A stretch of 64,000 nucleotides of DNA from Dyella sp. ASV24 (GTDB lineage Bacteria; Pseudomonadota; Gammaproteobacteria; Xanthomonadales; Rhodanobacteraceae), in contig NZ_JAELTQ010000004.1 in the NCBI RefSeq assembly GCF_016428905.1, positions 1-64,000 on the forward strand. Direction: 5' to 3'. The notes under the pieces were generated by a model. It was given only the letters and a program-made list of their open reading frames with translations. It did no database searches and was not told the origin of the DNA. Positions 15,301 through 37,359 of this stretch are shown in pieces. The position numbers were made by a program, and so were the translations under genes. Position 1 is the first letter of the stretch, and the number at the start of each line of letters is the position of its first letter.

Positions 15301-15456
15301 GTAAGCACGCACGATACCGGCCAACGAACACTCATCAGTGATCGCCAGCGCACGATAGCCGCACTCCTTTGCCCGATCGAACAGTTCACGCGCACTCGAT
15401 GCGCCACGCTGGAACGAGAAGTTCGACAGGCAATGCAGCTCGGCGTAGTCGTTCAT
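12379..15456 (-). CDS. dnaE2: Error-prone DNA polymerase DnaE2 (ImuC)
   Basis: The 1025-residue alpha-type polymerase III has an N-terminal PHP domain ([39 protein letters not shown] in overlapping pieces), the polymerase core with the metal-binding [13 protein letters not shown], and a C-terminal OB-fold half ([17 protein letters not shown]). It is shorter than the replicative DnaE and lacks its beta-tau tail, as is usual for DnaE2. It extends primers past lesions during SOS mutagenesis. The ATG at 15456 overlaps the end of imuB by four bases, fixing the start and showing translational coupling. Confidence 0.95.
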
Positions 15457-16865
15457 GCGAACCACCCGTGCAACATCCAGTTGCCCTGCTCGCCCGGTGC
15501 GCAGAACACCCAGGCACATTGCCCTTGCGATGTGCGCACCACGTAGTAATCGCGCCGTATGTCGCCACCATCCCACCAGCCGGTTTCAAGGCGCTCAGGG
15601 CCGGCCAGCACCTCCGGCGGCGGACCGCGCAAGGGGCGCGGGGTATCCAGCAGCCACGTGGGGCGCGGCAAGGTTTCCGGCGACGTTGCCCATGCAGTTG
15701 CCGCCGACGTGCTTTGCGCTTTTTCGGGCCGTGGATCCACCGTACGACGCAGGTGTTGAATGGCCTGCTCGCCCAAGCGTGCACGCAAGCGCTCGCGCAA
15801 CTGCTCCAATGGAACCGCATTCACTGGACGCGTATCGAACAGGTCGCGTCCTGCCGGCACGAACGGTGGCAACTCGCGCGCCACCAGTCGCATGGCCATG
15901 ACCGGCTGCGGCAGTTCAAGTCGCTCGAGGCGACCACGCGCGCAATCGAACAGCAGTGCCGCATCACGCGCGGCGGTGAGCATACCCACCGCGACATGCG
16001 TCGGTGCGCCGCTGCGATGTTCCAACTCAAGCTCGAAACGCTGCACGCCACCGTCGCGACCAGCGAGATACGCCGCCAGGTCACCGGTCAGGCGGCGCAA
16101 TGGAAACATCAAGGCTTCAACGTGCTCGATCTCGTGCGTCCACTCCATGCGTTGCTCGAACGCGTCGGGTGGACGGTAGCTTTCCATGGGCGTCGGCTCA
16201 TCACCGGTAAGGCGATCGAGCTGTGCCACCAAAGCCTCACCAAAGCGCCGCTGCAGCCCGGCACGGGGCAGCTTGAACACTTGCCCCAGCGTGCGGATGC
16301 CCATCGACGGCAAGCCTTGCGTGGCCTCCGCTGGCAAACGCGCACGCGCGATGGGGACGGGAGACAGGGCTTCCCGAAGGATCTCCGGCGACGTAACGGC
16401 CAGACCGTCCTGCACGCCGGCCAGCACATAGGCCGCGTGCGGCGTTGGTGCAAGCGCCACGCGATGACGGAAGCCAAGCTCTTTCAGATCATCGCGCAGC
16501 AGCGACTCGAAACGCTGCCACGGCCCAAACAGATTGAGGCTGCGACTCACCTCCAGCACCACGGCATGCGCATACAGGCCAACCTCGGCGCTATAGCGGT
16601 ACGCCCACGCGGCCAGCAGGCGATGCCAGCGCGCCTCGTCTTCCGCATCGTGTTCGATCATCACGAACTGTTGCAGCAATGCCTGCGCCGCGACGAGCTT
16701 CTGCCCGCGATACATACCCACCGCACGCGCCGATGCATTGGCTGCGTGCACGATGCGCGCCTGCGCGGGCCCACTCACCAGCACCAATGGCTCGTCCGAG
16801 GGCGGCCGTCGCCGGAGGACACCGTCCAGCGCCAGTTGCGGCAGCAGTATGCAGGCCCAGAGCAT
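15453..16865 (-). CDS. imuB: ImuB, catalytically silent Y-family polymerase homologue
   Basis: The 470-residue protein has the Y-family palm/finger and little-finger layout ([35 protein letters not shown]; later [21 protein letters not shown] as a helix-hairpin-helix). The catalytic acids of motif I are missing (ILLPQLALD instead of the usual D-x-D), as is known for ImuB. It acts as a scaffold that links DnaE2 and ImuA to the beta clamp. It lies between imuA (12 bp gap) and dnaE2 (4-bp overlap) in the cassette. Confidence 0.93.
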
Positions 16866-16877
16866 GATGGCGTCCCG

Positions 16878-17507
16878 TCACGACCAGCCGGAGGCCAAAG
16901 CCAGCGGTACCGCCTGCATCGGTGGGTTGCCGCCACGACATTTGCGCACGCGCACCTGCCACTCGGGCGTGCTTTCCAACTCCAGGCGCAAGGCGGCCGG
17001 CGAAGCCTGCACCGCATGGTGGCGATCACGAAATACAAAGGCCAATGCTTTGCCGGTATCAGCCGCCACCTGCAGGCGGCGGAGCGAACGATCGTCCGCC
17101 TTCATGGGCCATGCCAGCACGGCGGCACAACTAGCCGAGCGCAGACATTGCTCGGCAGCCCACAACACGTCGCGCTCGTCAGCCTGCACGATGTCCACGC
17201 GCGACATCACCACGCCACGCGCCTCCCATCCCGCCACATAAGGCACGTAGGGCGGCGCGATCACCATCACCGTACGTTGCTCGCGCGTCAGTCGCGCCAG
17301 CGTGGGGAGTACCAGCTGCAATTCGCCCACGCCATCGGCAGGCAGCAGGATCTCGGTCATCGCATGCTCGGGCCAGCCACCGCTCGGCAGCACCGCATCG
17401 AGCATCGGCCAGCCTGTGGGCTGGGTGCTGGACGGCGCTGGAGCGGCACGCCCTTGCCAGACCTGGCGGCTATGAAAGAGCGAATCGAGCGCAACGACCT
17501 GACCCAT
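16878..17507 (-). CDS. imuA: ImuA, RecA/SulA-like mutagenesis protein
   Basis: This 209-residue protein begins MGQVVALDSLFHSRQVWQG. It contains the ImuA core PTGWPMLDAVLPSGGWPEHAMTEIL followed by the RecA-like beta strand TVMVIAPPYVPYVAGWEARGV. It has no intact Walker A motif, as expected for the proteobacterial short form. It works with ImuB and DnaE2 in damage-induced mutagenesis. The ATG at 17507 lies 7 bp after the stop of the S24 regulator gene, so both should be on one transcript. Confidence 0.9.
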   Translation of the reverse strand: MGQVVALDSLFHSRQVWQGRAAPAPSSTQPTGWPMLDAVLPSGGWPEHAMTEILLPADGVGELQLVLPTLARLTREQRTVMVIAPPYVPYVAGWEARGVVMSRVDIVQADERDVLWAAEQCLRSASCAAVLAWPMKADDRSLRRLQVAADTGKALAFVFRDRHHAVQASPAALRLELESTPEWQVRVRKCRGGNPPMQAVPLALASGWS

Positions 17508-17514
17508 GGCACGG

Positions 17515-18084
17515 TTACCGCAAGGTACGCAGGCAACGCGTGACAACGCCCCACACGCTGAGCGTCTCGCCTTCGCGAAACACAATGGGTTTGAAGTGCG
17601 CGTTCTCCGGCAGCAACGCTATGTGCCCATCCACCTTGCCCAGGCGCTTGATGGTCAGCTCGTTATTGACCACCGCCACCACGATGTCACCCTGACGCGG
17701 CGCAAGCGCACGATCCACCAGCACTTCGTCGCCATCGAAGATGCCCGCACCGATCATCGACCAGCCCGATACCCGAATGATGAAGGTGCTCGGCTCATGC
17801 CCAGGCAGCACCAGATGTTGATTGAGATCGACCACCTCGTCGACATCGTCCTCGGCCAGCGTGGGCACACCGGCCGGCACACGACTGAGGAAGGCCGTCA
17901 GCGCGACCGTCGACGGGTCCAGCGAAACGGGGCGCGGCGCTTCCAGCGAGGCTGGGCTGCGGTAAGCCTCCAGGTAGGCCAGCACCGCCGGCACCTGGCT
18001 GTCAGGCACGCGAATGCGCTGGCTCGGTTCGCCGGCGGGGCGACCGGCGCCGGAGCGGCGTCCACCGTGTTCTGAAGGAGGCAT
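17515..18084 (-). CDS. S24-family SOS regulator, LexA2/UmuD-like
   Basis: The 189-residue protein has a basic N-terminus (HGGRRSGAGRPAGEPSQRIRVP) and a UmuD/LexA protease domain. The self-cleavage site is probably Ala71-Gly72 (RVPAGVPTLAEDD). The catalytic dyad is Ser109 in SGWSMIGAG and Lys146 in LTIKRL, spaced 37 residues as in UmuD. It heads the imuA-imuB-dnaE2 operon. Whether it is a repressor of this operon, a UmuD-like polymerase subunit, or both is unclear. The DNA-binding-like N-terminus and the inverted repeat just upstream favour a repressor role. Confidence 0.85.
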   Translation of the reverse strand: MPPSEHGGRRSGAGRPAGEPSQRIRVPDSQVPAVLAYLEAYRSPASLEAPRPVSLDPSTVALTAFLSRVPAGVPTLAEDDVDEVVDLNQHLVLPGHEPSTFIIRVSGWSMIGAGIFDGDEVLVDRALAPRQGDIVVAVVNNELTIKRLGKVDGHIALLPENAHFKPIVFREGETLSVWGVVTRCLRTLR

Positions 18085-21879: not shown

Positions 21880-21897
21880 GCATTAACTTTGGAAGGA

Positions 21898-23091
21898 ATG
21901 GTGGATCGCGTCCGAGCCGACTTCATGCCGTTCTATGCCTCCGTTACAACACCGCTGTCATGGATGGGCATCGCACTCGCCCTGTCCGCCACGGCATACG
22001 CCTGCCTGAGCCTCTGGGCGTGGTTTCGGTGCGAACGCCTGAACAAGCATCGGCAAGCGAATGTGAACGATCAGGCAAGCCGGCCAGTCAGCATACTCAA
22101 GCCACTGCATGGCGCCGAACCAAGGCTTTACGAGAACCTGCGCAGCTTCTGCATGCAACATTACGCGCCATATGAACTTCTCGTTGGCGTGCGAGATCCG
22201 GAGGATCCGGCTATCGCCGTGGTGCAACGACTGCAACGTGAATTCCCCCAGCTACCCATGGCGCTGGTGATCGATCCGGTAGTGCATGGGGCCAACCTCA
22301 AGGTCAGCAACCTGATGAATGTGCTCGCGCAAGCACGGCACGATTGGCTGGTGCTGGCGGACAGCGACATCAGCGTGACCCCGGATTATCTTTCGCGGGT
22401 TACTGCACCACTGAACGATCCGCGTGTAGGCATCGTGACGTGCCTCTACCACGGCGTATCGCATGCAGCCCTGAGCTCCCGACTGGGGCAATTGTTCATC
22501 GATGACTGGTTTGCTCCCTCCGTACGGCTGGCGCACGCCTTCGGCTCGACCCGTTTCGCTTTTGGCTCCACCATTGCCCTGCGCCGCGATGCGCTGGAGG
22601 CCATCGGCGGCCTCGACGCACTGAAGGACACCCTGGCGGACGACTTCTGGCTGGGTGAGCGCACACGCCAACTGGGCATGCATACAGTGCTGAGCGACCT
22701 GGTCGTAGGCACCGACGTCAGCGAAACGCGGATCGCCAGCCTTTGGCATCATGAATTGCGTTGGCTTCGCACCATACGCGCGATCTCCCCACTGGGATTC
22801 ATCTTCAGTTTCATTTGTTTTACCTGGCCCTTGCTGCTGCTCGCCCTGCTGCTGTCACCCTCTGTGCCCTGCCTCGTCATTGCATTCTTTGGTGGAATGG
22901 CGCGCACGGCACGCTATCTCGCATCATGGCGGAGCACCGCAAGACCTTCCCGCGGGCATGACCTTTGGCTCACCCCTTTCCGCGACGCGCTAATGCTGGT
23001 GGAATGGGCAGGTGCGCTGATCCACTGGCGGGTGGATTGGCGAGGACAGGTATTGCATGCACGCGACCACGCACCATCGCGGTATCCTTAG
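21898..23091 (+). CDS. hpnI: Hopanoid glycosyltransferase HpnI (GT21, ceramide glucosyltransferase-like)
   Basis: HpnI attaches N-acetylglucosamine to bacteriohopanetetrol. The protein (about 397 residues) has one N-terminal helix, the GT21 catalytic motifs RPVSILKPLHGAEPRL, LADSDISVTPDYL (metal-binding), DDFWLGERTRQLG and a (Q/R)xxRW-like LRWLRT, then C-terminal helices. The start is uncertain: ATG at 21898, GTG at 21901 or TTG at 21889 all follow or surround GGAAGG. It is the first of hpnI-hpnJ-hpnK-hpnL on the plus strand. Confidence 0.9.
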   Translation: MVDRVRADFMPFYASVTTPLSWMGIALALSATAYACLSLWAWFRCERLNKHRQANVNDQASRPVSILKPLHGAEPRLYENLRSFCMQHYAPYELLVGVRDPEDPAIAVVQRLQREFPQLPMALVIDPVVHGANLKVSNLMNVLAQARHDWLVLADSDISVTPDYLSRVTAPLNDPRVGIVTCLYHGVSHAALSSRLGQLFIDDWFAPSVRLAHAFGSTRFAFGSTIALRRDALEAIGGLDALKDTLADDFWLGERTRQLGMHTVLSDLVVGTDVSETRIASLWHHELRWLRTIRAISPLGFIFSFICFTWPLLLLALLLSPSVPCLVIAFFGGMARTARYLASWRSTARPSRGHDLWLTPFRDALMLVEWAGALIHWRVDWRGQVLHARDHAPSRYP

Positions 23092-23173: not shown

Positions 23174-24601
23174 ATGAAGACGCTTTTTCTACAAGCCCCC
23201 TCGTTTGATGGTTTCGACGGCGGAGCCGGCTCCCGTTACCAAGCCAAACGCGAGATCAAGAGTTTCTGGTATCCCACCTGGCTGGCACAGCCAGCCGCGC
23301 TCGTCCCCGGATCGCGCGTGCTCGACGCCCCGGTGGAAGAGTTGTCGGTGGAGGAAACCCTCAACATCGCCAGTGTCTACGACCTGGTGATCATCCATAC
23401 CAGCACACCGTCCTTCCCCACCGACGCGAAATTCGCGGAGCTGCTCAAAGAGCGTCACCCAAACGTCCTTATCGGCATGGTGGGTGCCAAGGTCGCGGTG
23501 GAACCGGATGCCTCACTGCTTGCGTCGCCGGCGATCGATTTCGTGGCACGCGAGGAGTTCGACTACACCTGTAAGGAAGTGGCCGAAGGCCGCGCCTTCA
23601 AGGACATTGCCGGCATCAGCTACAAGCTGGCCGATGGCAGCGTGCAGCACAATCCGTCGCGCGCCACCATCGAAAACATGGACGACCTGCCCTTCGTGGC
23701 GCCGATCTATCAGCGCGACCTGAAGATCGAGCGCTACTTCATCGGCTACCTGATGCACCCGTACGTGTCGATCTACACCGGACGCGGCTGCCGATCCAAG
23801 TGCACGTTCTGTCTGTGGCCGCAAACGGTGGGCGGCCATCGCTACCGCGTACGCTCGGCCGCCAACGTGCTGGCCGAAGCGAAGTGGATCAAGGAGAACA
23901 TGCCGGAAGTCCGCGAGCTCATGTTCGACGACGACACCTTCACCGACAGCTCCAACATGGATCGCGTGCACGACATTGCGCGCGGCCTGCACGCCATGGG
24001 CTGGACGTGGAGCTGCAACGCCAAGGCCAACGTGCCGTACGAGTCGCTGAAGATCATGAAGGAGAACGGCCTGCGCCTGCTCCTGGTGGGCTACGAGTCG
24101 GGTGACGACCAGATCCTGCACAACATCAAGAAGGGCCTGCGCACCGATATCGCGCGCACCTTCACCGAGAACTGCCGCAAGCTCGGCATCGTCGTGCATG
24201 GCACCTTTATTCTTGGTCTTCCGGGTGAAACCAAGGAAACCATCGCGCGCACCATCCAGTACGCCAAGGAGATCAACCCGCACACCATCCAGGTGTCGCT
24301 GGCCGCGCCCTATCCGGGCACCTCGCTATACAAGCAGGCCATCGAGAACGGCTGGCTGGAGCCCAACACCTCCGCTCACCTGGTCAACGAGAAGGGCGTG
24401 CAGCTGGCGATGATCAGCTACCCGCACCTCTCCAAGGAAGATATCTTCCACGGCGTGGAAACCTTCTACCGAAGCTTCTATTTCCGCCCCTCCAAGATCT
24501 GGGAGATCGTGAAGGAGATGGCAGGCAGCTGGGAGATGACCAAGCGACGATTGCGCGAAGGCGTGGAGTTCTTCCGATTCCTGCGCGCACACGAGGCATG
24601 A
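23174..24601 (+). CDS. hpnJ: Hopanoid cyclitol-ether enzyme HpnJ (B12-binding radical SAM)
   Basis: HpnJ converts glucosaminyl-bacteriohopanetetrol to the cyclitol ether. The protein starts MKTLFLQAPSFDGFDGGAGS, the usual HpnJ N-terminus, which selects the ATG at 23174 over earlier in-frame starts. An N-terminal B12-binding-like domain is followed by the radical SAM motif GCRSKCTFC (Cys206, Cys210, Cys213). The C-terminal half contains ILGLPGETKETIARTI and QVSLAAPYPGTSLY. Length is 475 residues. It sits between hpnI and hpnK, consistent with the ordered HpnI-HpnK-HpnJ reactions. Confidence 0.93.
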   Translation: MKTLFLQAPSFDGFDGGAGSRYQAKREIKSFWYPTWLAQPAALVPGSRVLDAPVEELSVEETLNIASVYDLVIIHTSTPSFPTDAKFAELLKERHPNVLIGMVGAKVAVEPDASLLASPAIDFVAREEFDYTCKEVAEGRAFKDIAGISYKLADGSVQHNPSRATIENMDDLPFVAPIYQRDLKIERYFIGYLMHPYVSIYTGRGCRSKCTFCLWPQTVGGHRYRVRSAANVLAEAKWIKENMPEVRELMFDDDTFTDSSNMDRVHDIARGLHAMGWTWSCNAKANVPYESLKIMKENGLRLLLVGYESGDDQILHNIKKGLRTDIARTFTENCRKLGIVVHGTFILGLPGETKETIARTIQYAKEINPHTIQVSLAAPYPGTSLYKQAIENGWLEPNTSAHLVNEKGVQLAMISYPHLSKEDIFHGVETFYRSFYFRPSKIWEIVKEMAGSWEMTKRRLREGVEFFRFLRAHEA

Positions 24602-24623: not shown

Positions 24624-25454
24624 ATGACTGCTCCACCCGCACCCGCGCGCCCACGCTTGATCGTGACGGCCGACGATTTCGGCCTGCACACAGCCGTCAA
24701 CCAGGCCGTTGAACGCGGCTATCGCGAAGGCGTGCTGCGCGCAGCCAGCCTGATGGTGACGGCACCCGCCGTTGCCGATGCCGTGGCGCGCGCCAAACAG
24801 ATGCCAGGCCTCGCTGTAGGCCTGCATCTAGTGCTTGCAGATGGGCAGTCGGCGTTACCGCCATCACGCATACCCGACCTGGTCGATGCACGAGGAAACT
24901 TCGGCGATAACATGGTGCGTGACGGATTCCGCTTCTTCTTCCTGCCGCACGTGCGCGCGCAGCTGGCGGCGGAAATCCGTGCCCAGTTCGAGGCGTTCGC
25001 CGCCACGGGCTTGCCGCTCGACCACGTCAACGCCCACAAACACTTTCATCTTCACCCCACCGTGCTGACCCTGATGCTTTCCATCGGCCGCAGCTTCGGG
25101 CTACGCGCTGTGCGCTGGCCGGCCGAACCGAATTCCAGCCCCTGGCTCACCCCTTGGCTGGCACTGATGCGCCACCGGCTGCGCCGTGCCGGCGTGCGCT
25201 CCAACGATCATGTATTTGGTATCCAGCACACCGGAGCCATGGACGAAAAGGTGCTACTGGACGTGGTGCAACGACTACCCAACGGATTGAACGAGATCTA
25301 CCTGCATCCGGCCACCCATGGAGAGCTCACGCCTGCCATGGCGAACTACCGGCATGCCGACGAACTGGCCGCCCTGCTTTCGCCCCGCGTGCAACAAGCC
25401 GTGGCGGAACACTGCCAACTTTGCGCAGGCTTCAGCGATCCGGCGGCCGCATGA
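24624..25454 (+). CDS. hpnK: Hopanoid deacetylase HpnK (YdjC/ChbG-like)
   Basis: HpnK removes the acetyl group from N-acetylglucosaminyl-bacteriohopanetetrol. The 276-residue YdjC-fold protein shows LIVTADDFGLHTAVNQAV with the metal-binding Asp17-Asp18, VGLHLVLADG, DHVNAHKHFHLHP with metal-binding histidines, and NEIYLHPATHGE. It begins 22 bp after hpnJ and its stop overlaps the start of hpnL by four bases, so the set is an operon. Confidence 0.92.
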   Translation: MTAPPAPARPRLIVTADDFGLHTAVNQAVERGYREGVLRAASLMVTAPAVADAVARAKQMPGLAVGLHLVLADGQSALPPSRIPDLVDARGNFGDNMVRDGFRFFFLPHVRAQLAAEIRAQFEAFAATGLPLDHVNAHKHFHLHPTVLTLMLSIGRSFGLRAVRWPAEPNSSPWLTPWLALMRHRLRRAGVRSNDHVFGIQHTGAMDEKVLLDVVQRLPNGLNEIYLHPATHGELTPAMANYRHADELAALLSPRVQQAVAEHCQLCAGFSDPAAA

Positions 25455-26470
25455 AATATTTCGTCTACATCGCCGGGCTGCTCGGGCTGGCTGCTGCGAT
25501 CATCCTGATCACGCACCAGAACTGGTCCGCCATTGAAGGCGCCTTCGACCATGCGGGCTGGGCCTTGCTGTGGCTGCTGCCTTTCCACGCCCTGCCCTTG
25601 TTGCTGGACGTGTTCGGCTGGCGCGCACTGCTCGCACCAAGCGACCCACAACGGCGCGCCGGCACACCCTTCCTGTTCTGGGTCGCCACGGTGCGCGAGG
25701 CGTGCAACCGCCTGCTTCCGGTTGCCAATATCGGCGGCGAAATCGTCGGTATCCGCCTGGTCAAATGGCGAGGGCTAGACGGTGCGCCCGTAGCGGCCAG
25801 CGTCGTGATGGAAGTGCTGCTGACCCTGGTCAGCCAATACGTCTTCGTTGCTCTGGGTCTGTTGTTGCTGATCGGCATGGCGGGCCACATCGGCACACTC
25901 AATTCAGTGATCTGGGCGGTGGTTGCCACGCTTCCGCTACCTATCGGCTTGATCTGGATACTGCGGCATGGCCAGATGTTCTCGCGACTGGAAACGTTTG
26001 CGGAGAAGCTGCTCGGCGGCCCATCGCGTTTCACCGAACTGCTGGATGGCGCCCGTCTGGACGAAGAGGTCCGCAAGCTCTACAGCAAGCCCGCACGACT
26101 GGCCGTCGCCTGCGCATGGCAGGTAGGTGGTTTCGTGGTGGGCAGTTTCGAAAGCTGGCTGGCTTTGCAGTTGCTGGGCTTCCCCATTTCCGTGTGGGAC
26201 GCGATCGCCATCGAAGCAACCACCCAGGCTGTGCGCCATATCATCTTCTTCGTGCCCGCAGGCCTGGGCGTACAAGAAGGCGGACTGGTGTTGTTCGGCA
26301 ACATCATCGGCTTGCCTGCCGACGCGGCCATTGCCCTGTCACTGGTCAAGCGTGCCCGCGAAGTAGGTTTTGGCGTACCGGCGCTATTGTCCTGGCAGTG
26401 GGCGGAGGCGCACCGCATGCATCGCCGCTGGCTCTCGCGCCGCAAGCCGAAGCTTTCCGAGACACCGTGA
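25451..26470 (+). CDS. hpnL: Hopanoid-associated flippase-like membrane protein HpnL
   Basis: The 339-residue protein has about eight transmembrane helices and the lysylphosphatidylglycerol-synthase/UPF0104 flippase-like pattern (NRLLPVANIGGEIVGIRLVKW; later IIFFVPAGLGVQEGGLVLFG and ALSLVKRAREVGFGVPALL). HpnL is assumed to act on or move hopanoid intermediates at the inner membrane, without direct proof. The ATG overlaps the hpnK stop in an ATGA arrangement, which settles the start among many upstream in-frame codons. Confidence 0.9.
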   Translation: MKYFVYIAGLLGLAAAIILITHQNWSAIEGAFDHAGWALLWLLPFHALPLLLDVFGWRALLAPSDPQRRAGTPFLFWVATVREACNRLLPVANIGGEIVGIRLVKWRGLDGAPVAASVVMEVLLTLVSQYVFVALGLLLLIGMAGHIGTLNSVIWAVVATLPLPIGLIWILRHGQMFSRLETFAEKLLGGPSRFTELLDGARLDEEVRKLYSKPARLAVACAWQVGGFVVGSFESWLALQLLGFPISVWDAIAIEATTQAVRHIIFFVPAGLGVQEGGLVLFGNIIGLPADAAIALSLVKRAREVGFGVPALLSWQWAEAHRMHRRWLSRRKPKLSETP

Positions 26471-26486
26471 ATCGATTGAGGTGAGC

Positions 26487-27377
26487 ATGTCCCACGATGC
26501 TGTAGCCGCCGCCGACCACACCATGCGCCACTGGGCAGGCAATGAGCCGGGGCGCATCAAGACCGGCTCTGACGCCCACAAGCGTCTGTTCTGCCGGATG
26601 CTGCTGGACACGCACAACCCGTACAAGCCCGCCGTAATCGATTGGCCGACGCTGAGCGCGGACGCCCTGCATCGCATTACCTCGCTGCCGATCTGGGATA
26701 TTGCGGTGCAGACCGAGGGCAAGGCCAAGCTGCGCGTCGCCACCTACACCAACACGGTGACCGACCCGCTACTGCATGAAGCACTGACCATGGATGGCGA
26801 CGAAGAAGCCCGCCACAAAGTCGTGCTCAGCAAGATGGTGGCGGCCTACGGTATCGAGCTCGCGCCGGAACCGGAATACGAGGTACCGAAAGATCCCGAG
26901 TGGGGCTGGCTGGTCACCGGCTACAGCGAGTGCATCGACAGCTTTTTTGCTTTCGGCCTGTTCGAATCCGCCAAGCGCACGGGTTACTTTCCTTCTGAGC
27001 TGGTGGAAACCTTCGAACCGGTCATGCAGGAAGAGGCCCGTCACATCCTGTTCTTCGCCAATTGGGTGGCGTGGTATCGAAAACAATTGCCGTGGTGGCG
27101 ACGCCCGGCGTTCGAACTGAAGGTGATGCGCGTATGGTTGTTCCTGATCTGGGAGCGCATCGGCATCGCCAAGGGTCTGGATGGCAACGGCGAAATGCAG
27201 GACGCCAACTTCACCCTGACCGGGCACGAGCAGATCGGCCTGGACCTGAAGATCGGCGAACTGATCGACCTTTGTCTGGCGCAGGACAGCTACCGCATGG
27301 GTGGTTATGACGAACGCCTGCTGCGCCCCACTTTCGTCCCGCGCATGGCACGCCTGGCGAGGCGGTTCGTGAAATAA
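26487..27377 (+). CDS. Uncharacterised ferritin-like diiron protein in the hopanoid cluster
   Basis: The 296-residue protein has two identical EEARH motifs (residues 106-110 and 182-186), each giving an ExxH pair. YSECIDSFFAF (Glu148) between them supplies a likely further carboxylate, the arrangement of ferritin-like diiron carboxylate enzymes. It has no signal peptide; a Trp-rich segment (LPWWRRPAFELKVMRVWLFLIWERIG) may touch the membrane. GAGGTGA precedes the ATG at 26487, 17 bp after hpnL, so it belongs to the hpnIJKL transcript. An oxidative step on a hopanoid (hydroxylation or desaturation) is a fair guess but unproven. It has no hpn name that I know of. Confidence 0.75.
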   Translation: MSHDAVAAADHTMRHWAGNEPGRIKTGSDAHKRLFCRMLLDTHNPYKPAVIDWPTLSADALHRITSLPIWDIAVQTEGKAKLRVATYTNTVTDPLLHEALTMDGDEEARHKVVLSKMVAAYGIELAPEPEYEVPKDPEWGWLVTGYSECIDSFFAFGLFESAKRTGYFPSELVETFEPVMQEEARHILFFANWVAWYRKQLPWWRRPAFELKVMRVWLFLIWERIGIAKGLDGNGEMQDANFTLTGHEQIGLDLKIGELIDLCLAQDSYRMGGYDERLLRPTFVPRMARLARRFVK

Positions 27378-27390
27378 ACCGCGGTAACAC

Positions 27391-28368
27391 TCAGCGGTGC
27401 AGACTGAACCAGGCCACCGCATCTTCCAGCGCCAGGCGCACCGGCCCCGCGGCGTAACCCAACTCCCGCTCGGCTTTGGCGCTACTGAAAAACATGCGCT
27501 TGCGCGACATGCGCACCTCTTCCACCGTGGCAATGGGCGGTTTGCCCGTGATCTTGGCCAACGCCTCCGCCACGTAGGCGACCGGCATGACCGCACCATG
27601 CGGCAAACGCCAACGCGGCGGCGGGCGACCGACGATGTCTGCGATCTCGAACAACAAGTCGCGCAGACTGAGGTTGGTGCCACCCAGCACGTAACGTGCA
27701 CCGACCGTACCGTGCCGAAAGGCCAGCCAGTGTCCGTCGGCCACGTCGTCCACGTGCACGACATTCAACCCGGTATCGACATACGCCGGCATGCGCCCCG
27801 CCATGGCATCGCGCACGATGCGACCGGTGGGCGTAGGCTTGATATCCCGCGGACCAATGGGCGTGGAGGGATTCACGATCACCACCGGCAGCCCCTGCGC
27901 CGCGTACTCGCTGACGAGTTGCTCAGCCAGGAACTTGGAACGTTTGTAGTGGCCCACCATGTCCGCCAAGGACACCGAGGTCGCCTCGTCGCCGGGTGTG
28001 CCGTCCTTGGGGATGCCCAATGTCGCCACACTGCTCGTATAGACCACGCGTGGCACGCCGGCCCGCCGCGCGACATCCAGCAAGGCGCGCGTTCCTTCGA
28101 CGTTGGTCTGGTACAACTCCTGCGGCCTGGGCGCCCACAGGCGGTAATCGGCGGCCACGTGGAACAAGGCATCGCAACCGTCGCAAACTCCTGCCAGCGA
28201 AGCGGCGTCGGCCAGATCGGCCTCCACCACCTCCACATCCAAACCCTGCAGGTTGCGCCGGTCGGAACCACGCCGCGCCAACACGCGCACACGATGATCT
28301 TCGCGCAACAAGCGCCGCACCACGGCAGAGCCGACAAATCCCGTGGCGCCAGTAACCAGTGACCTCAC
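27391..28368 (-). CDS. hpnA: Hopanoid-associated sugar epimerase/dehydrogenase HpnA
   Basis: The extended short-chain dehydrogenase (about 325 residues) opens VRSLVTGATGFVGSAVVRRLL with the NAD-binding GxxGxxG. It continues LFHVAADYRLWAPRPQELYQTNVEGT, TSSVATLG and the catalytic HYKRSK (YxxxK). This matches HpnA, whose reaction in hopanoid synthesis is not proven. GTG at 28368 starts the family domain; the longer frame upstream adds an unrelated basic leader. It is convergent with the diiron gene (14 bp between stops) and divergent from squalene synthase. Confidence 0.88.
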   Translation of the reverse strand: MRSLVTGATGFVGSAVVRRLLREDHRVRVLARRGSDRRNLQGLDVEVVEADLADAASLAGVCDGCDALFHVAADYRLWAPRPQELYQTNVEGTRALLDVARRAGVPRVVYTSSVATLGIPKDGTPGDEATSVSLADMVGHYKRSKFLAEQLVSEYAAQGLPVVIVNPSTPIGPRDIKPTPTGRIVRDAMAGRMPAYVDTGLNVVHVDDVADGHWLAFRHGTVGARYVLGGTNLSLRDLLFEIADIVGRPPPRWRLPHGAVMPVAYVAEALAKITGKPPIATVEEVRMSRKRMFFSSAKAERELGYAAGPVRLALEDAVAWFSLHR

Positions 28369-28699: not shown

Positions 28700-29839
28700 A
28701 TGCCAATGTTCGATGCAAAACAAGCCGCTGAGGTCGCCCCGAGCAACGCCAGCGCTTATCAGGAAGCGATTCTTCCAAAGGTTTCACGGACGTTCGCGCT
28801 GACGATCCCGCAGCTGCCGCCGGCACTGCGCGACGTTGTTGCCAATGCGTACCTGCTTTGTCGCATTGCCGACACCATCGAAGACGAACCCGTTTTCACC
28901 GCCGAAGAAAAAGGTCGCTACGAGAACGCCTTCGTCAGCGCTGTCACCGGTCACGTGGACGCGCGCGCGTTTGCAGCCGACATCGCGCCACGCCTGTCCA
29001 ACGCCACGTCGGAAAGCGAACGCGACCTGGTGTTCCGGTTGCCGCTGGTGTTGGAAGTCACCGATACCTTTAATCCCACGCAGCACGAAGCGATCGTGGA
29101 ATGCCTGCGTGTCATGTCGCAAGGCATGCACGACTTCCAGCGCGTCGTCGGCCCGCAAGGCCTGGAGACACTGCGTGACATGGACCGGTACTGCTACCAC
29201 GTTGCCGGCGTGGTCGGTGAGATGCTTACCAAGCTGCTTATCGACTTCGAACCGGAGCTGGTCCCGCAGACGCGTACGCTGATGCGCTTGGCCATTTCGT
29301 TCGGCCAAGGTCTGCAGATGACCAACATCCTCAAGGACCAGTGGGAAGATCGCAGCCATGGCGTGTGCTGGCTCCCGCGCGATGTCTTTGCCCGTCACGG
29401 TGTGGAACTCCGCGACCTCACCGCTGGTCAGCAGGATGCCCGCTACGCCAACGCCATGATCGAACTGATCGGCGTGGCGCACTCACACCTGTGTCGCGCG
29501 GTGGAGTACACCCTGCTCGTGCCGGCGCGCCACGCAGGCTTCCGTCGGTTCTGCCTGTGGAGCATCGGTCTTGCCGTGCTTACGCTGCGCAATCTGCAGG
29601 ATCGCCTGGACTTTTCGTCGGGCACGGAGGTGAAGGTTTCGCGCGCGGCCGTTGCCCAGACCATCGGCCTGACGCGGCTCAGCGACAAGTACGATCCAGC
29701 GGTCCGCTTTTTGTTCGGCGCAGCGGCCCGCAAACTACCACTGACACCTCTGGGGCCAGAGTGGGACGTGCCCCAGGCAAGGAACGTGGCGTGGCCATGG
29801 CGACGAGCATCGGACTTCAAGAACGCACGATCGCTATGA
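28700..29839 (+). CDS. Squalene synthase (single-enzyme type)
   Basis: The 379-residue prenyl-diphosphate condensing enzyme has the features of true squalene synthases: SRTFALTIPQLPPALRDVV, the first Asp-rich motif DTIEDE, YCYHVAGVVGEM and the second Asp-rich motif region LQMTNILKDQWED. They resemble eukaryotic and Methylococcus-type enzymes, which make squalene from two FPP with NADPH in one protein. There is no C-terminal membrane anchor. No hpnC, hpnD or hpnE occurs in the window, which fits this one-enzyme route. Its TGA overlaps the ATG of shc by four bases. Confidence 0.88.
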   Translation: MPMFDAKQAAEVAPSNASAYQEAILPKVSRTFALTIPQLPPALRDVVANAYLLCRIADTIEDEPVFTAEEKGRYENAFVSAVTGHVDARAFAADIAPRLSNATSESERDLVFRLPLVLEVTDTFNPTQHEAIVECLRVMSQGMHDFQRVVGPQGLETLRDMDRYCYHVAGVVGEMLTKLLIDFEPELVPQTRTLMRLAISFGQGLQMTNILKDQWEDRSHGVCWLPRDVFARHGVELRDLTAGQQDARYANAMIELIGVAHSHLCRAVEYTLLVPARHAGFRRFCLWSIGLAVLTLRNLQDRLDFSSGTEVKVSRAAVAQTIGLTRLSDKYDPAVRFLFGAAARKLPLTPLGPEWDVPQARNVAWPWRRASDFKNARSL

Positions 29840-35261: not shown

Positions 35262-35285
35262 TCTTCATTGCTCTGGAGTCACTGC

Positions 35286-35648
35286 ATGCAACTCAACCGT
35301 CGCGCCGCACTCGCCACGCTCGCCTTGCTCGTCAGCCTCAATGCAAGCGCCCATGCCATCCTCACTGACAGCACGCCCAAGGCCAATGGCAGCGTCGCCG
35401 CCGGCCACGTAGCGCTGACGCTCAAGTACAACAGCAAGATTGATCAAGGGCGTTCGCGACTGCTACTCGTTGCCGCCGACAAAAGTGAAACGCCGCTCGC
35501 CATCACCGCCAATGCGGACAAACCCAACGAACTGGACAGCACTACGGATCTGAAGCCGGGCACGTATGTCATCCGCTGGCAGGCACTGGCACTGGACGGA
35601 CACATTACGCGCGGCGATCTGCCGTTCACCGTGACGCCTGCGCCCTAA
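35286..35648 (+). CDS. copC: CopC-type periplasmic copper-binding protein
   Basis: This 120-residue secreted protein (signal MQLNRRAALATLALLVSLNASA) has the CopC beta-sandwich pattern. HAILTDSTPKANGSV gives the N-terminal His after cleavage, and YVIRWQALALDGHITRGDLPFTV the C-terminal His ligand region. It binds Cu(II) in the periplasm. The ATG at 35286 has GGAG eight bases before it. It follows hpnN closely and precedes copD, so copper genes may share the hopanoid transcript. Confidence 0.85.
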   Translation: MQLNRRAALATLALLVSLNASAHAILTDSTPKANGSVAAGHVALTLKYNSKIDQGRSRLLLVAADKSETPLAITANADKPNELDSTTDLKPGTYVIRWQALALDGHITRGDLPFTVTPAP

Positions 35649-35703
35649 GCGCGGCCATCAACGTCATCCCAACCGATAGCCACCGCCGACCAACGGGGGT
35701 TCC

Positions 35704-37359
35704 GTGGCACTGCTTGTCGACATCTTTGGTTACCTGAGCGTCATCCTGCATGGACTGGTGATCGTCGCCCAGTCCATGACACTGGGCGGCCTGCTTTTTC
35801 TTGTGTTCCTGCTGCACCCGCTGAGCTCACGACTGGTGCAGGGCGACGTGTTGGAACACCGCATCGTGCGCCTGACCCGCTGGAGCGCGTGGGGACTGGT
35901 GCTCGCCGAGCTGGCGACAGCGGCGCTGCAAGTATCGGTGCTGATGTCGACTGTCGACCTGCCCTTCGGCAACGTCATGCAAGCGTCGTTCGCCATGGCG
36001 GGCAGCATCAAGATCTTCTGCGCACTCGCCATCGCGCTTTGCCTGGGCCAACGCACCATGGCGAAGCCGCTTCCGCGCATGCTCTTGCTGTTGGTGGGTC
36101 TGATCGAACTGGCTGCCGCCACCGCCACCACGCATGCCTATGCACGCCTGGACGACAATGCGCTGCTGATGGTCGTAGAAGGTCTGCACCAGTTCGGCGC
36201 CGCGATCTGGATCGGCGCTATCCCCTGCTTCGTGGTTGTGCTGCGTCACCTGCAGGACACGGATGGCCTGAGCCTGGTCGGTTCTCGCTTCTCTCGCATG
36301 TCGATGATTGGCGTGGCCTGCATACTCCTGTCCGGCATCACCATGTGGATCTTCTACGTCGGTGACATCCAGGGCTTCTACGGCACCGCCTATGGCGTCA
36401 TGGTCGGCGCCAAGGTGGCTATGTTCATCGGCCTGCTAGGCCTGGGACTGGGCAACTTGTTGGTCACCGAGCGCCTGCGCAAAGGTGGCGATGCCTCCGT
36501 GACGCGCATGCGCCGCTTTGCCGAAGTGGAGATCGGCATTGGCTTCACGATCTTCTTCGCCGCAGCATCGTTGACGTCCGTACCACCTGCCGTCGACCTG
36601 ACCACCGACCGCGTGACACTGCACGAAATCGCCGTACGCAATGCACCGGCATGGCCGCGCCTGAGCTCGCCCGATCACGACACGCTAGCCATTTCGCAAC
36701 TGCAGACCCAACTGGACCAGGACGCCGCGCGCGATCATCAAGTGGCACAGTCCGCCACGACCCCTGGATCCGGCATCCTGCCGCCACGCAATGCTGAAGA
36801 CATCGCGTGGTCCGAGTACAACCATCATTGGGCTGGCATCTTCGTCCTGTTGATCGGCCTCCTTGCCCTGCTCAGTCGCGCCGGCATGCGCTGGGCGCGA
36901 CATTGGCCGTTGCTGTTCCTGCTCATGGCGGGCTTTCTGCTACTCCGATCCGACCCGGAGGTGTGGCCGCTGGGCCACGAGGGATGGTGGGTGGCATGGC
37001 GCGACGTGGAAGTAGCGCAGCACCGCTTCTTCGTACTGCTGATCATCCTGTTCGGCACGTTCGAATGGTCCGTGCGTACTGGCCGCCTGAAGAGCGAGCG
37101 CGCAGCGCTGGTCTTCCCCCTGCTGGTCGCGGTGGGTGGCGCCATGCTGCTCACGCACAGCCACCAGATTTCCAATGTGAAGGATCAGATGCTGATCGAA
37201 CTGACCCACACGCCGCTGGCACTGGCTGGCGTGGCCGCAGGTTGGTCACGGTGGCTGGAGTTGCGCCTGCCCGGTCGCGGCGGCCGCATTGCCGGTTACG
37301 TGTGGCCGGCGTGCTTCATGCTGATCGGGGTGATCCTGCTGTGGTATCGCGAGGCCTAA
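35704..37359 (+). CDS. copD: CopD family copper transport membrane protein
   Basis: The 551-residue multi-pass protein resembles CopD: LIELAAATATTHAYARLDDNALLMVVEGLHQFGAAIWIGAIPCF with conserved His, and later EYNHHWAGIFVLL and VGGAMLLTHSHQ with further His pairs. The first half is the CopD domain; the second half has its own helices and His motifs. It likely imports or handles copper with CopC. GTG at 35704 follows a GGGGG ribosome-binding site. Its stop codon sits in the loop of a strong hairpin shared with ispA. Confidence 0.82.
   Translation: MALLVDIFGYLSVILHGLVIVAQSMTLGGLLFLVFLLHPLSSRLVQGDVLEHRIVRLTRWSAWGLVLAELATAALQVSVLMSTVDLPFGNVMQASFAMAGSIKIFCALAIALCLGQRTMAKPLPRMLLLLVGLIELAAATATTHAYARLDDNALLMVVEGLHQFGAAIWIGAIPCFVVVLRHLQDTDGLSLVGSRFSRMSMIGVACILLSGITMWIFYVGDIQGFYGTAYGVMVGAKVAMFIGLLGLGLGNLLVTERLRKGGDASVTRMRRFAEVEIGIGFTIFFAAASLTSVPPAVDLTTDRVTLHEIAVRNAPAWPRLSSPDHDTLAISQLQTQLDQDAARDHQVAQSATTPGSGILPPRNAEDIAWSEYNHHWAGIFVLLIGLLALLSRAGMRWARHWPLLFLLMAGFLLLRSDPEVWPLGHEGWWVAWRDVEVAQHRFFVLLIILFGTFEWSVRTGRLKSERAALVFPLLVAVGGAMLLTHSHQISNVKDQMLIELTHTPLALAGVAAGWSRWLELRLPGRGGRIAGYVWPACFMLIGVILLWYREA

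Follow-up and report, generated by a model that had tools for sequence, protein, structure and literature searches.

The window analysed here, a stretch of 64,000 nucleotides from Dyella sp. ASV24, contains a hopanoid island in which hpnB, hpnH and idi are found on the minus strand, followed on the plus strand by hpnI-hpnJ-hpnK-hpnL and then by a gene of unassigned function, designated family A (A) throughout this work. Hopanoids are lipids that correspond in bacteria to sterols. On the 3′ side of this gene, the island continues with hpnA on the minus strand, a squalene synthase-like gene, a squalene-hopene cyclase gene, hpnG and hpnN. The features on which the analysis is centred are the following:

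21889..23091, plus strand: hpnI, glycosyltransferase to BHT-N-acetylglucosamine (TIGR03472, 450 bits, cut-off 310)
23174..24601, plus strand: hpnJ, radical SAM enzyme of cyclitol ether formation (TIGR03471, 818 bits, cut-off 578)
24624..25454, plus strand: hpnK, deacetylase (TIGR03473, 395 bits, cut-off 233)
25451..26470, plus strand: hpnL, flippase-like membrane protein (TIGR03476, 333 bits, cut-off 196)
26478..26484, plus strand: Shine-Dalgarno-like GAGGTGA, 5′ of the family A start codon (direct sequence reading)
26487..27377, plus strand: diiron-type protein of family A (296 aa), put forward as a hydroxylase of the hopanoid side chain at C-31 (open reading frame, co-occurrence, linkage, model and invariant ligands)

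The four plus-strand hpn genes all exceed their NCBIfam cut-offs, with hpnJ and hpnL having been searched from 23177 and 25448 and their starts placed at 23174 (ATG) and 25451, respectively; hpnB (377 bits versus 379) and hpnG (150 versus 187) remained under theirs. One squalene synthase-like gene is present in the island (28700-29839, plus strand; TIGR01559, 116 bits, cut-off 287), to which the HpnD and HpnC models matched more weakly (68 and 58 bits). The island is flanked by a mutasome-type cassette (15453-18084, minus strand) composed of a LexA/UmuD-like peptidase S24 gene, imuA and an imuB-like gene with an IMS domain, and tandem genes with CopC and CopD domains (35268-37359, plus strand) are found immediately 3′ of hpnN.

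The family A frame begins with ATG and encodes the 296 residues that a sequence-only reading of the region had attributed to it, although the distance of 17 bp from hpnL given in that reading failed narrowly, since hpnL ends at 26470 and the gap is 16 bp. When compared with four Dyella orthologues, the gene presented dN values of about 0.04-0.06 and dS values of about 0.65-1.0, showing that it is under purifying selection. This low dN relative to dS, together with its presence in the hpn clusters of other families, indicates that the frame is a real gene and not a chance one. An antisense frame overlapping it (26769-27764, minus strand) was considered as a true gene and rejected as a shadow frame, since purifying selection sits on the plus strand. 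Family A is represented by a single match within its own genome, and the closest titled relatives of the protein are found in Dyella.

Predicted ligands, fold and protein family

As the sequence-only reading had claimed, the protein carries two EEARH motifs, at residues 106-110 and 182-186, with a glutamate (E148) between them. The corresponding codons, with the helices in which they fall in the AlphaFold model and their conservation among homologous sequences, are:

26715..26717, plus strand: codon of E77, predicted diiron ligand, helix 70-88 (E in 151/151 sequences)
26802..26816, plus strand: codons of EEARH 106-110, predicted ligands E107 and H110, helix 94-120 (E106, E107, R109 and H110 in 151/151)
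26928..26930, plus strand: codon of E148, predicted ligand, helix 137-165 (151/151)
27030..27044, plus strand: codons of EEARH 182-186, predicted ligands E183 and H186, helix 170-200 (E183, R185 and H186 in 151/151)

In this alignment of 151 sequences, which includes family A together with its paralogous clade B, nine residues (E77, E106, E107, R109, H110, E148, E183, R185 and H186) are invariant and E182 is present in 150 sequences. The diiron site of five ligands previously proposed (Glu107, His110, Glu148, Glu183 and His186) thus held and was incomplete, as the addition of E77 as the sixth completes the set of four glutamates and two histidines. The predicted ligands E77, E107/H110, E148 and E183/H186 are spread over four long model helices in the order E, ExxH, E, ExxH, as required of diiron-carboxylate oxidases. 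The earlier assignment to this class is supported by these ligands and is compatible with the predicted bundle of helices, with metal binding, O2 activation and the reaction itself remaining inferred.

The AlphaFold model, obtained from 66 sequences, is a helical bundle with a pLDDT of 86.9 and a pTM of 0.87, of low confidence at residues 231-251. R2-like ligand-binding oxidases and ribonucleotide reductase R2 proteins ranked at the top in both Foldseek and VIA searches, and the acyl-ACP desaturases 2uw1 and 1afr were also matched by Foldseek. However, no Foldseek match reached an E value of 0.001 or better (the best was 2.9e-3), and the best VIA Z score, 14.9 over 215 residues, falls within the range of 14-15 that is close to the level of helical models without a clear match; for these reasons, the predicted R2-like nature of the protein is considered probable and not proven. 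The R2 proteins share with family A the set of four glutamates and two histidines and the two ExxH motifs, but they are only 6-18% identical in the structural matches, their gene context differs, and the R2 family was absent among Pfam matches of the family A protein at E values up to 1. R2-like ligand-binding oxidases are known for a Tyr-Val crosslink and a bound fatty acid. Two (D/E)ExRH motifs are, in turn, typical of acyl-ACP desaturases and of the hydroxylases of bacterial multicomponent monooxygenases. In spite of the fold matches to desaturases, neither group appeared among the Pfam matches of family A, which is tied to hopanoid genes, and no monooxygenase subunit was found among the identified neighbours of the gene.

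Profile searches did not place the protein in any established family. No Pfam model was matched by the window protein at its cut-off, with AurF (PF11583; 14.1 bits, gathering cut-off 29.6, E 0.027) and Ferritin_2 (PF13668; 15.3 bits, gathering cut-off 24.7) both insufficient; a NCBIfam search of the family A protein returned nothing at E values up to 0.01, and phmmer against the PDB nothing at E values up to 10. A profile of 66 sequences gave two weak PDB matches, at E 0.24 to a MiaE-like protein and at E 0.22 to a glutathione transferase, and single members of the family presented weak matches to AurF (20/66, best E 0.0013) and to Rubrerythrin (14/66). The similarity of A or B to AurF N-oxygenases, to MiaE-like tRNA hydroxylase (5ux1) and to Metal_hydrol (PF10118) is, in all cases, below the cut-off or non-significant. 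With the named hopanoid genes hpnA-hpnR, family A shares clusters and host range; unlike family A, none of the hpn genes identified here is a diiron protein by model name.

Association with hopanoid genes and the paralogous clade B

The linkage of family A was evaluated in titled contigs, for the 80 best of at least 434 confirmed relatives, with similarity to a sphingomonad sequence as the ranking criterion and many MAGs among them; the counts cover the fetched stretches, up to 10 kb on each side of A. A core hpn gene other than hpnL was found near A in 59 of the 80 loci (two or more such genes in 58), a hpnL-like match alone in six, and no hpn gene in 15, belonging to Burkholderia, Paraburkholderia, Rhodoblastus and two MAGs. 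The genes hpnI, hpnJ and hpnK were all present in the stretch in 52 loci, and the gene immediately upstream of A was hpnK in 45, hpnL in 11 and hpnJ in two. In Cupriavidus metallidurans CH34, A is found near hpnB, hpnA, hpnH and hpnN; in the Burkholderia cenocepacia stretch, no hpn gene occurs within 6 kb of A. Inspection by eye of the neighbours of five unlinked copies revealed no obvious redox-partner gene.

The sequence-only reading had proposed verifying co-occurrence with hpnI/J/K/L across genomes. This was performed with HpnH instead, scored positive at E values up to 1e-60, and the prediction passed, the linkage to hpnI/J/K being seen in the fetched loci. In a sample of 398 Pseudomonadota genomes, 49 of which were HpnH-positive, all 14 carriers of A were HpnH-positive, and the association was maintained when the genome of the window was excluded (13/13, Fisher p 2e-13). 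The four carriers among 151 genomes of the order sample all fell within its 10 HpnH-positive genomes, and A was found in 3/274 genomes of the class sample, where HpnH was not scored. In the family of genome G628 (129 genomes), which we take from close relatives to be Sphingomonadaceae, the three carriers were all among 14 HpnH-positive genomes, with A in 2/13 HpnH-positive genomes outside the genus of G628. In that genus (76 genomes), taken to be Sphingomonas, eight of nine carriers were HpnH-positive and A was present in 8/12 HpnH-positive genomes, the ninth carrier being G1017, an 84% complete genome without a HpnH match. In the family of G747 (f219; 100 genomes), which we take to be Acetobacteraceae by inference without proof, A was found in 52 genomes, 50 of them among the 85 HpnH-positive ones (84 over the cut-off), and G940 and G968 carried A with no HpnH match. 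It was thus shown that, in the samples searched, A is nearly restricted to HpnH-positive genomes, with G940, G968 and G1017 as exceptions. On the basis of co-occurrence and clustering, it is very likely that A belongs to the hopanoid pathway. It is an accessory gene of hopanoid makers, being absent from 35 of the 49 genomes with HpnH in the phylum sample. One genome, G942 (L157), with 1.9 Mb, carries two copies of A of equal score separated by 13.5 kb, possibly a recent duplication.

In the tree of the family, clade A (124 rows) and clade B (27 rows) were split with a support of 100, obtained by a quick method with SH-aLRT only and with some long branches. B proteins are about 33% identical to A and often adjoin or are fused to it: B directly follows A in 19 of the 80 loci, and in five of these (L067, L070, L074, L079 and L086) both form a single open frame of about 580 codons. 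These five, in which a hpnL-like gene is the sole hpn-type match nearby, are all within the six loci with hpnL-like matches only. The single-frame genes are apparently fused two-domain diiron proteins, as inferred from sequence alone. In the family of G747, B was present in 17/100 genomes, all of which also carried A, with the two genes adjacent in 14; no second match was found in the 129 genomes of the family of G628 or the 76 of its genus. In G060, a genome of the window's own family, possibly Frateuria as we take it without proof, A (L004) occupies the equivalent place in a hpn cluster like that of the window and B (L005) lies elsewhere (L026, L027); both group with the family of G747 in the tree, which suggests horizontal transfer of the two genes.

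Some further observations concern clade B and its surroundings. In contig C1 of G747 (G747:C1; L012/L023), A and B are likewise joined in a single frame that spans about 580 codons or more, and about 7.5 kb from the A-B gene of G747 there is a ferredoxin-NADP reductase-like stretch (L033 18186-18531, 75.8% DNA identity), a possible redox partner. A lone divergent B-like gene of G285 (L007/L029), around which no hpn genes occur for about 9 kb, neighbours another gene whose AurF match is weak and below the cut-off (E 0.0012). One B protein (L071 10142-10984) matched most of the profile of PF10118, a predicted metal-dependent hydrolase, also below the cut-off (E 0.0028), and could be a distant relative.

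Lipid profiles and candidate functions

A study profiling 54 alphaproteobacteria stated that no genes are known for the formation of pentols, hexols or unsaturated bacteriohopanepolyols, the vicinity of the hpn cluster having been checked for pentol candidates without success and no candidate being available for pentol or hexol formation (PMC12583986). In that study, bacteriohopanepentol was found mostly as cyclitol ether, in 10 species of Rhodospirillales and six of Sphingomonadales, with Hyphomicrobiales having none; in free form it stayed below 0.3%, with Enhydrobacter, which has free and carbamoylated pentols, as the main exception, and hexols were reported only from Rhodospirillales (PMC12583986). 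Our literature search, which left subscription papers and preprints largely outside, found no title or abstract start assigning the family A gene and no hopanoid profile of Dyella.

The most direct comparison is provided by Sphingomonas formosensis CC-Nfb-2, reported to contain pentol plus hexol at 23% and unsaturated hopanoids at 1% (PMC12583986), which is the same strain as that of locus L052, where A is found between hpnK and hpnL. Since hexols were reported only from Rhodospirillales, this 23% should be pentol. Among the profiled Acetobacteraceae, 9/10 make pentols or hexols and 7/10 have 49-82% unsaturated hopanoids, and in sphingomonad genera other than Sphingomonas, 3/4 cultured species that make bacteriohopanepolyols produce pentols (PMC12583986). 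By contrast, pentol plus hexol reach only 0-1% in the profiled Methylobacteriaceae, and Afipia broomeae has 43% unsaturated hopanoids without pentol (PMC12583986); Methylorubrum extorquens is a producer of cyclitol ether. A is also present in B. cenocepacia CMCC(B)23006; in three other strains of this species, compounds annotated as pentol cyclitol ethers were described together with unsaturated ones, including an annotated delta-6 compound (PMC8560942), so that the species does not discriminate between a hydroxylase and a desaturase. Frateuria aurantia, whose own genome was not checked for A, yields C31 hopanol (PMC8537080). C31 hopanol is a degradation product of pentols.

In the mechanism proposed, A would be a soluble diiron oxygenase, probably of the R2-like kind, that activates O2 and belongs to the pathway of the hopanoid side chain, where it would most likely hydroxylate C-31, the methylene adjoining the polyol of bacteriohopanetetrol (BHT) cyclitol ether or of the hpnI/K/J precursors, giving bacteriohopanepentol cyclitol ether. 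The occurrence of pentol mainly as cyclitol ether, the product of hpnIJK, would explain the position of a pentol enzyme beside hpnI/J/K. That A is an oxygenase acting on a hopanoid is likely, with metal binding, O2 activation and substrate being inferred. Among the options raised by the sequence-only reading, hydroxylation fits the published lipid profiles best, and these profiles combined with gene occurrence point to C-31 as the site hydroxylated by A and, with less confidence, to C-30 as that of B. The evidence leans modestly towards a pentol-forming C-31 hydroxylase, with substrate, reaction, position and product all inferred in the absence of biochemistry. The assignment of paralogue B, which would hydroxylate C-30 to give hexol, is also inferred and more speculative, although the lack of B in the sampled sphingomonads agrees with the absence of hexols there. 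The bolder reading, in which A and B would be sequential diiron hydroxylases, sometimes fused in a protein of about 580 residues, oxidising the adjacent C-31 and C-30 to give pentols and hexols, can only be put forward tentatively, as the evidence falls short of making it the expected outcome.

Several observations weigh against the pentol role. A is present in only 2/13 HpnH-positive sphingomonad genomes outside the genus of G628 versus pentols in 3/4 cultured species (p 0.05), a comparison between different species and without data on hpnIJK in the genomes, and in 50/85 HpnH-positive genomes of the family of G747 versus pentols or hexols in 9/10 profiled Acetobacteraceae. As A is rarer than pentols in these groups, a second pentol enzyme is possible. 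The other five pentol-making sphingomonads are absent from the list of the best 80 relatives, which offers no test as that list is not exhaustive, and gene and lipid profile are matched by strain in one species only, S. formosensis. The carriers without a HpnH match (G940, G968 and G1017) also count against this role, as do the free and carbamoylated pentols of Enhydrobacter and the 1% pentol plus hexol of Enterovirga, a member of Hyphomicrobiales (Table 3 of PMC12583986).

The first alternative is that A is a hopanoid ring desaturase, acting at delta-6 or delta-11. In its favour, the acyl-ACP desaturases 2uw1 and 1afr, diiron proteins of the same broad kind, are among the model matches; B. 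cenocepacia carries A and strains of the species make the compound annotated as delta-6; and high levels of unsaturation occur in 7/10 profiled Acetobacteraceae. However, A lies within the hpn cluster of S. formosensis, whose unsaturated hopanoids amount to just 1%, for which reason desaturation, one of the options of the sequence-only reading, fits poorly. Moreover, no Sphingomonas in Table 3 exceeds 1% (PMC12583986), yet A is found in 8/12 HpnH-positive genomes of the genus of G628, and A is often placed straight after side-chain genes. This alternative is consequently regarded as unlikely.

Also unlikely is the oxidation of the cyclitol or glucosamine head group, either at the amine, in an AurF-like N-oxygenation, or at another carbon, to give an unrecognised derivative. 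It is supported by the presence of hpnI, hpnJ and hpnK, whose products carry an amine, in 52/80 loci and by the weak AurF matches in 20/66 members (best E 0.0013). On the other hand, the AurF score of the window protein (14.1 bits) is far under the curated cut-off of 29.6, no oxidised head group was mentioned in the passages of the hopanoid literature consulted, and the parallel with pentols would be left unexplained.

A rubrerythrin-like role in shielding HpnH and HpnJ, both radical SAM enzymes, against oxygen, the remaining option of the sequence-only reading, could account for the co-occurrence of A with HpnH and for the weak Rubrerythrin matches in 14/66 members, but it fits poorly because 35/49 HpnH-positive genomes of the phylum sample are without A, and 15/80 loci lack any hpn gene nearby, making it very unlikely. 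Two further roles were rejected: conversion of ribosylhopane to BHT, the gene for which is also stated to be unknown (PMC12583986), since this is formally a reduction and the same 35/49 genomes lack A; and a required partner of HpnJ, since hopanoids of the cyclitol ether type are made by Hyphomicrobiales, for example Afipia and Microvirga (PMC12583986), and A is missing from all HpnH-positive genomes of two families, f217 (10 genomes) and f207 (7 genomes), which we take, on a weak basis, to be relatives of Bradyrhizobium and Methylobacterium.

Bacteriohopanepolyols trace bacteria in sediments, where pentols and hexols are used as biomarkers. If A and B are indeed sequential C-31 and C-30 hydroxylases, a gap in hopanoid biosynthesis would be closed. 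With A as candidate, pentol producers would become predictable from their genomes; if the enzyme is an oxygenase, the pentol and hexol biomarkers would be tied to molecular oxygen. With a candidate gene at hand, the origin of pentols and hexols becomes open to a knock-out or gain-of-function experiment.
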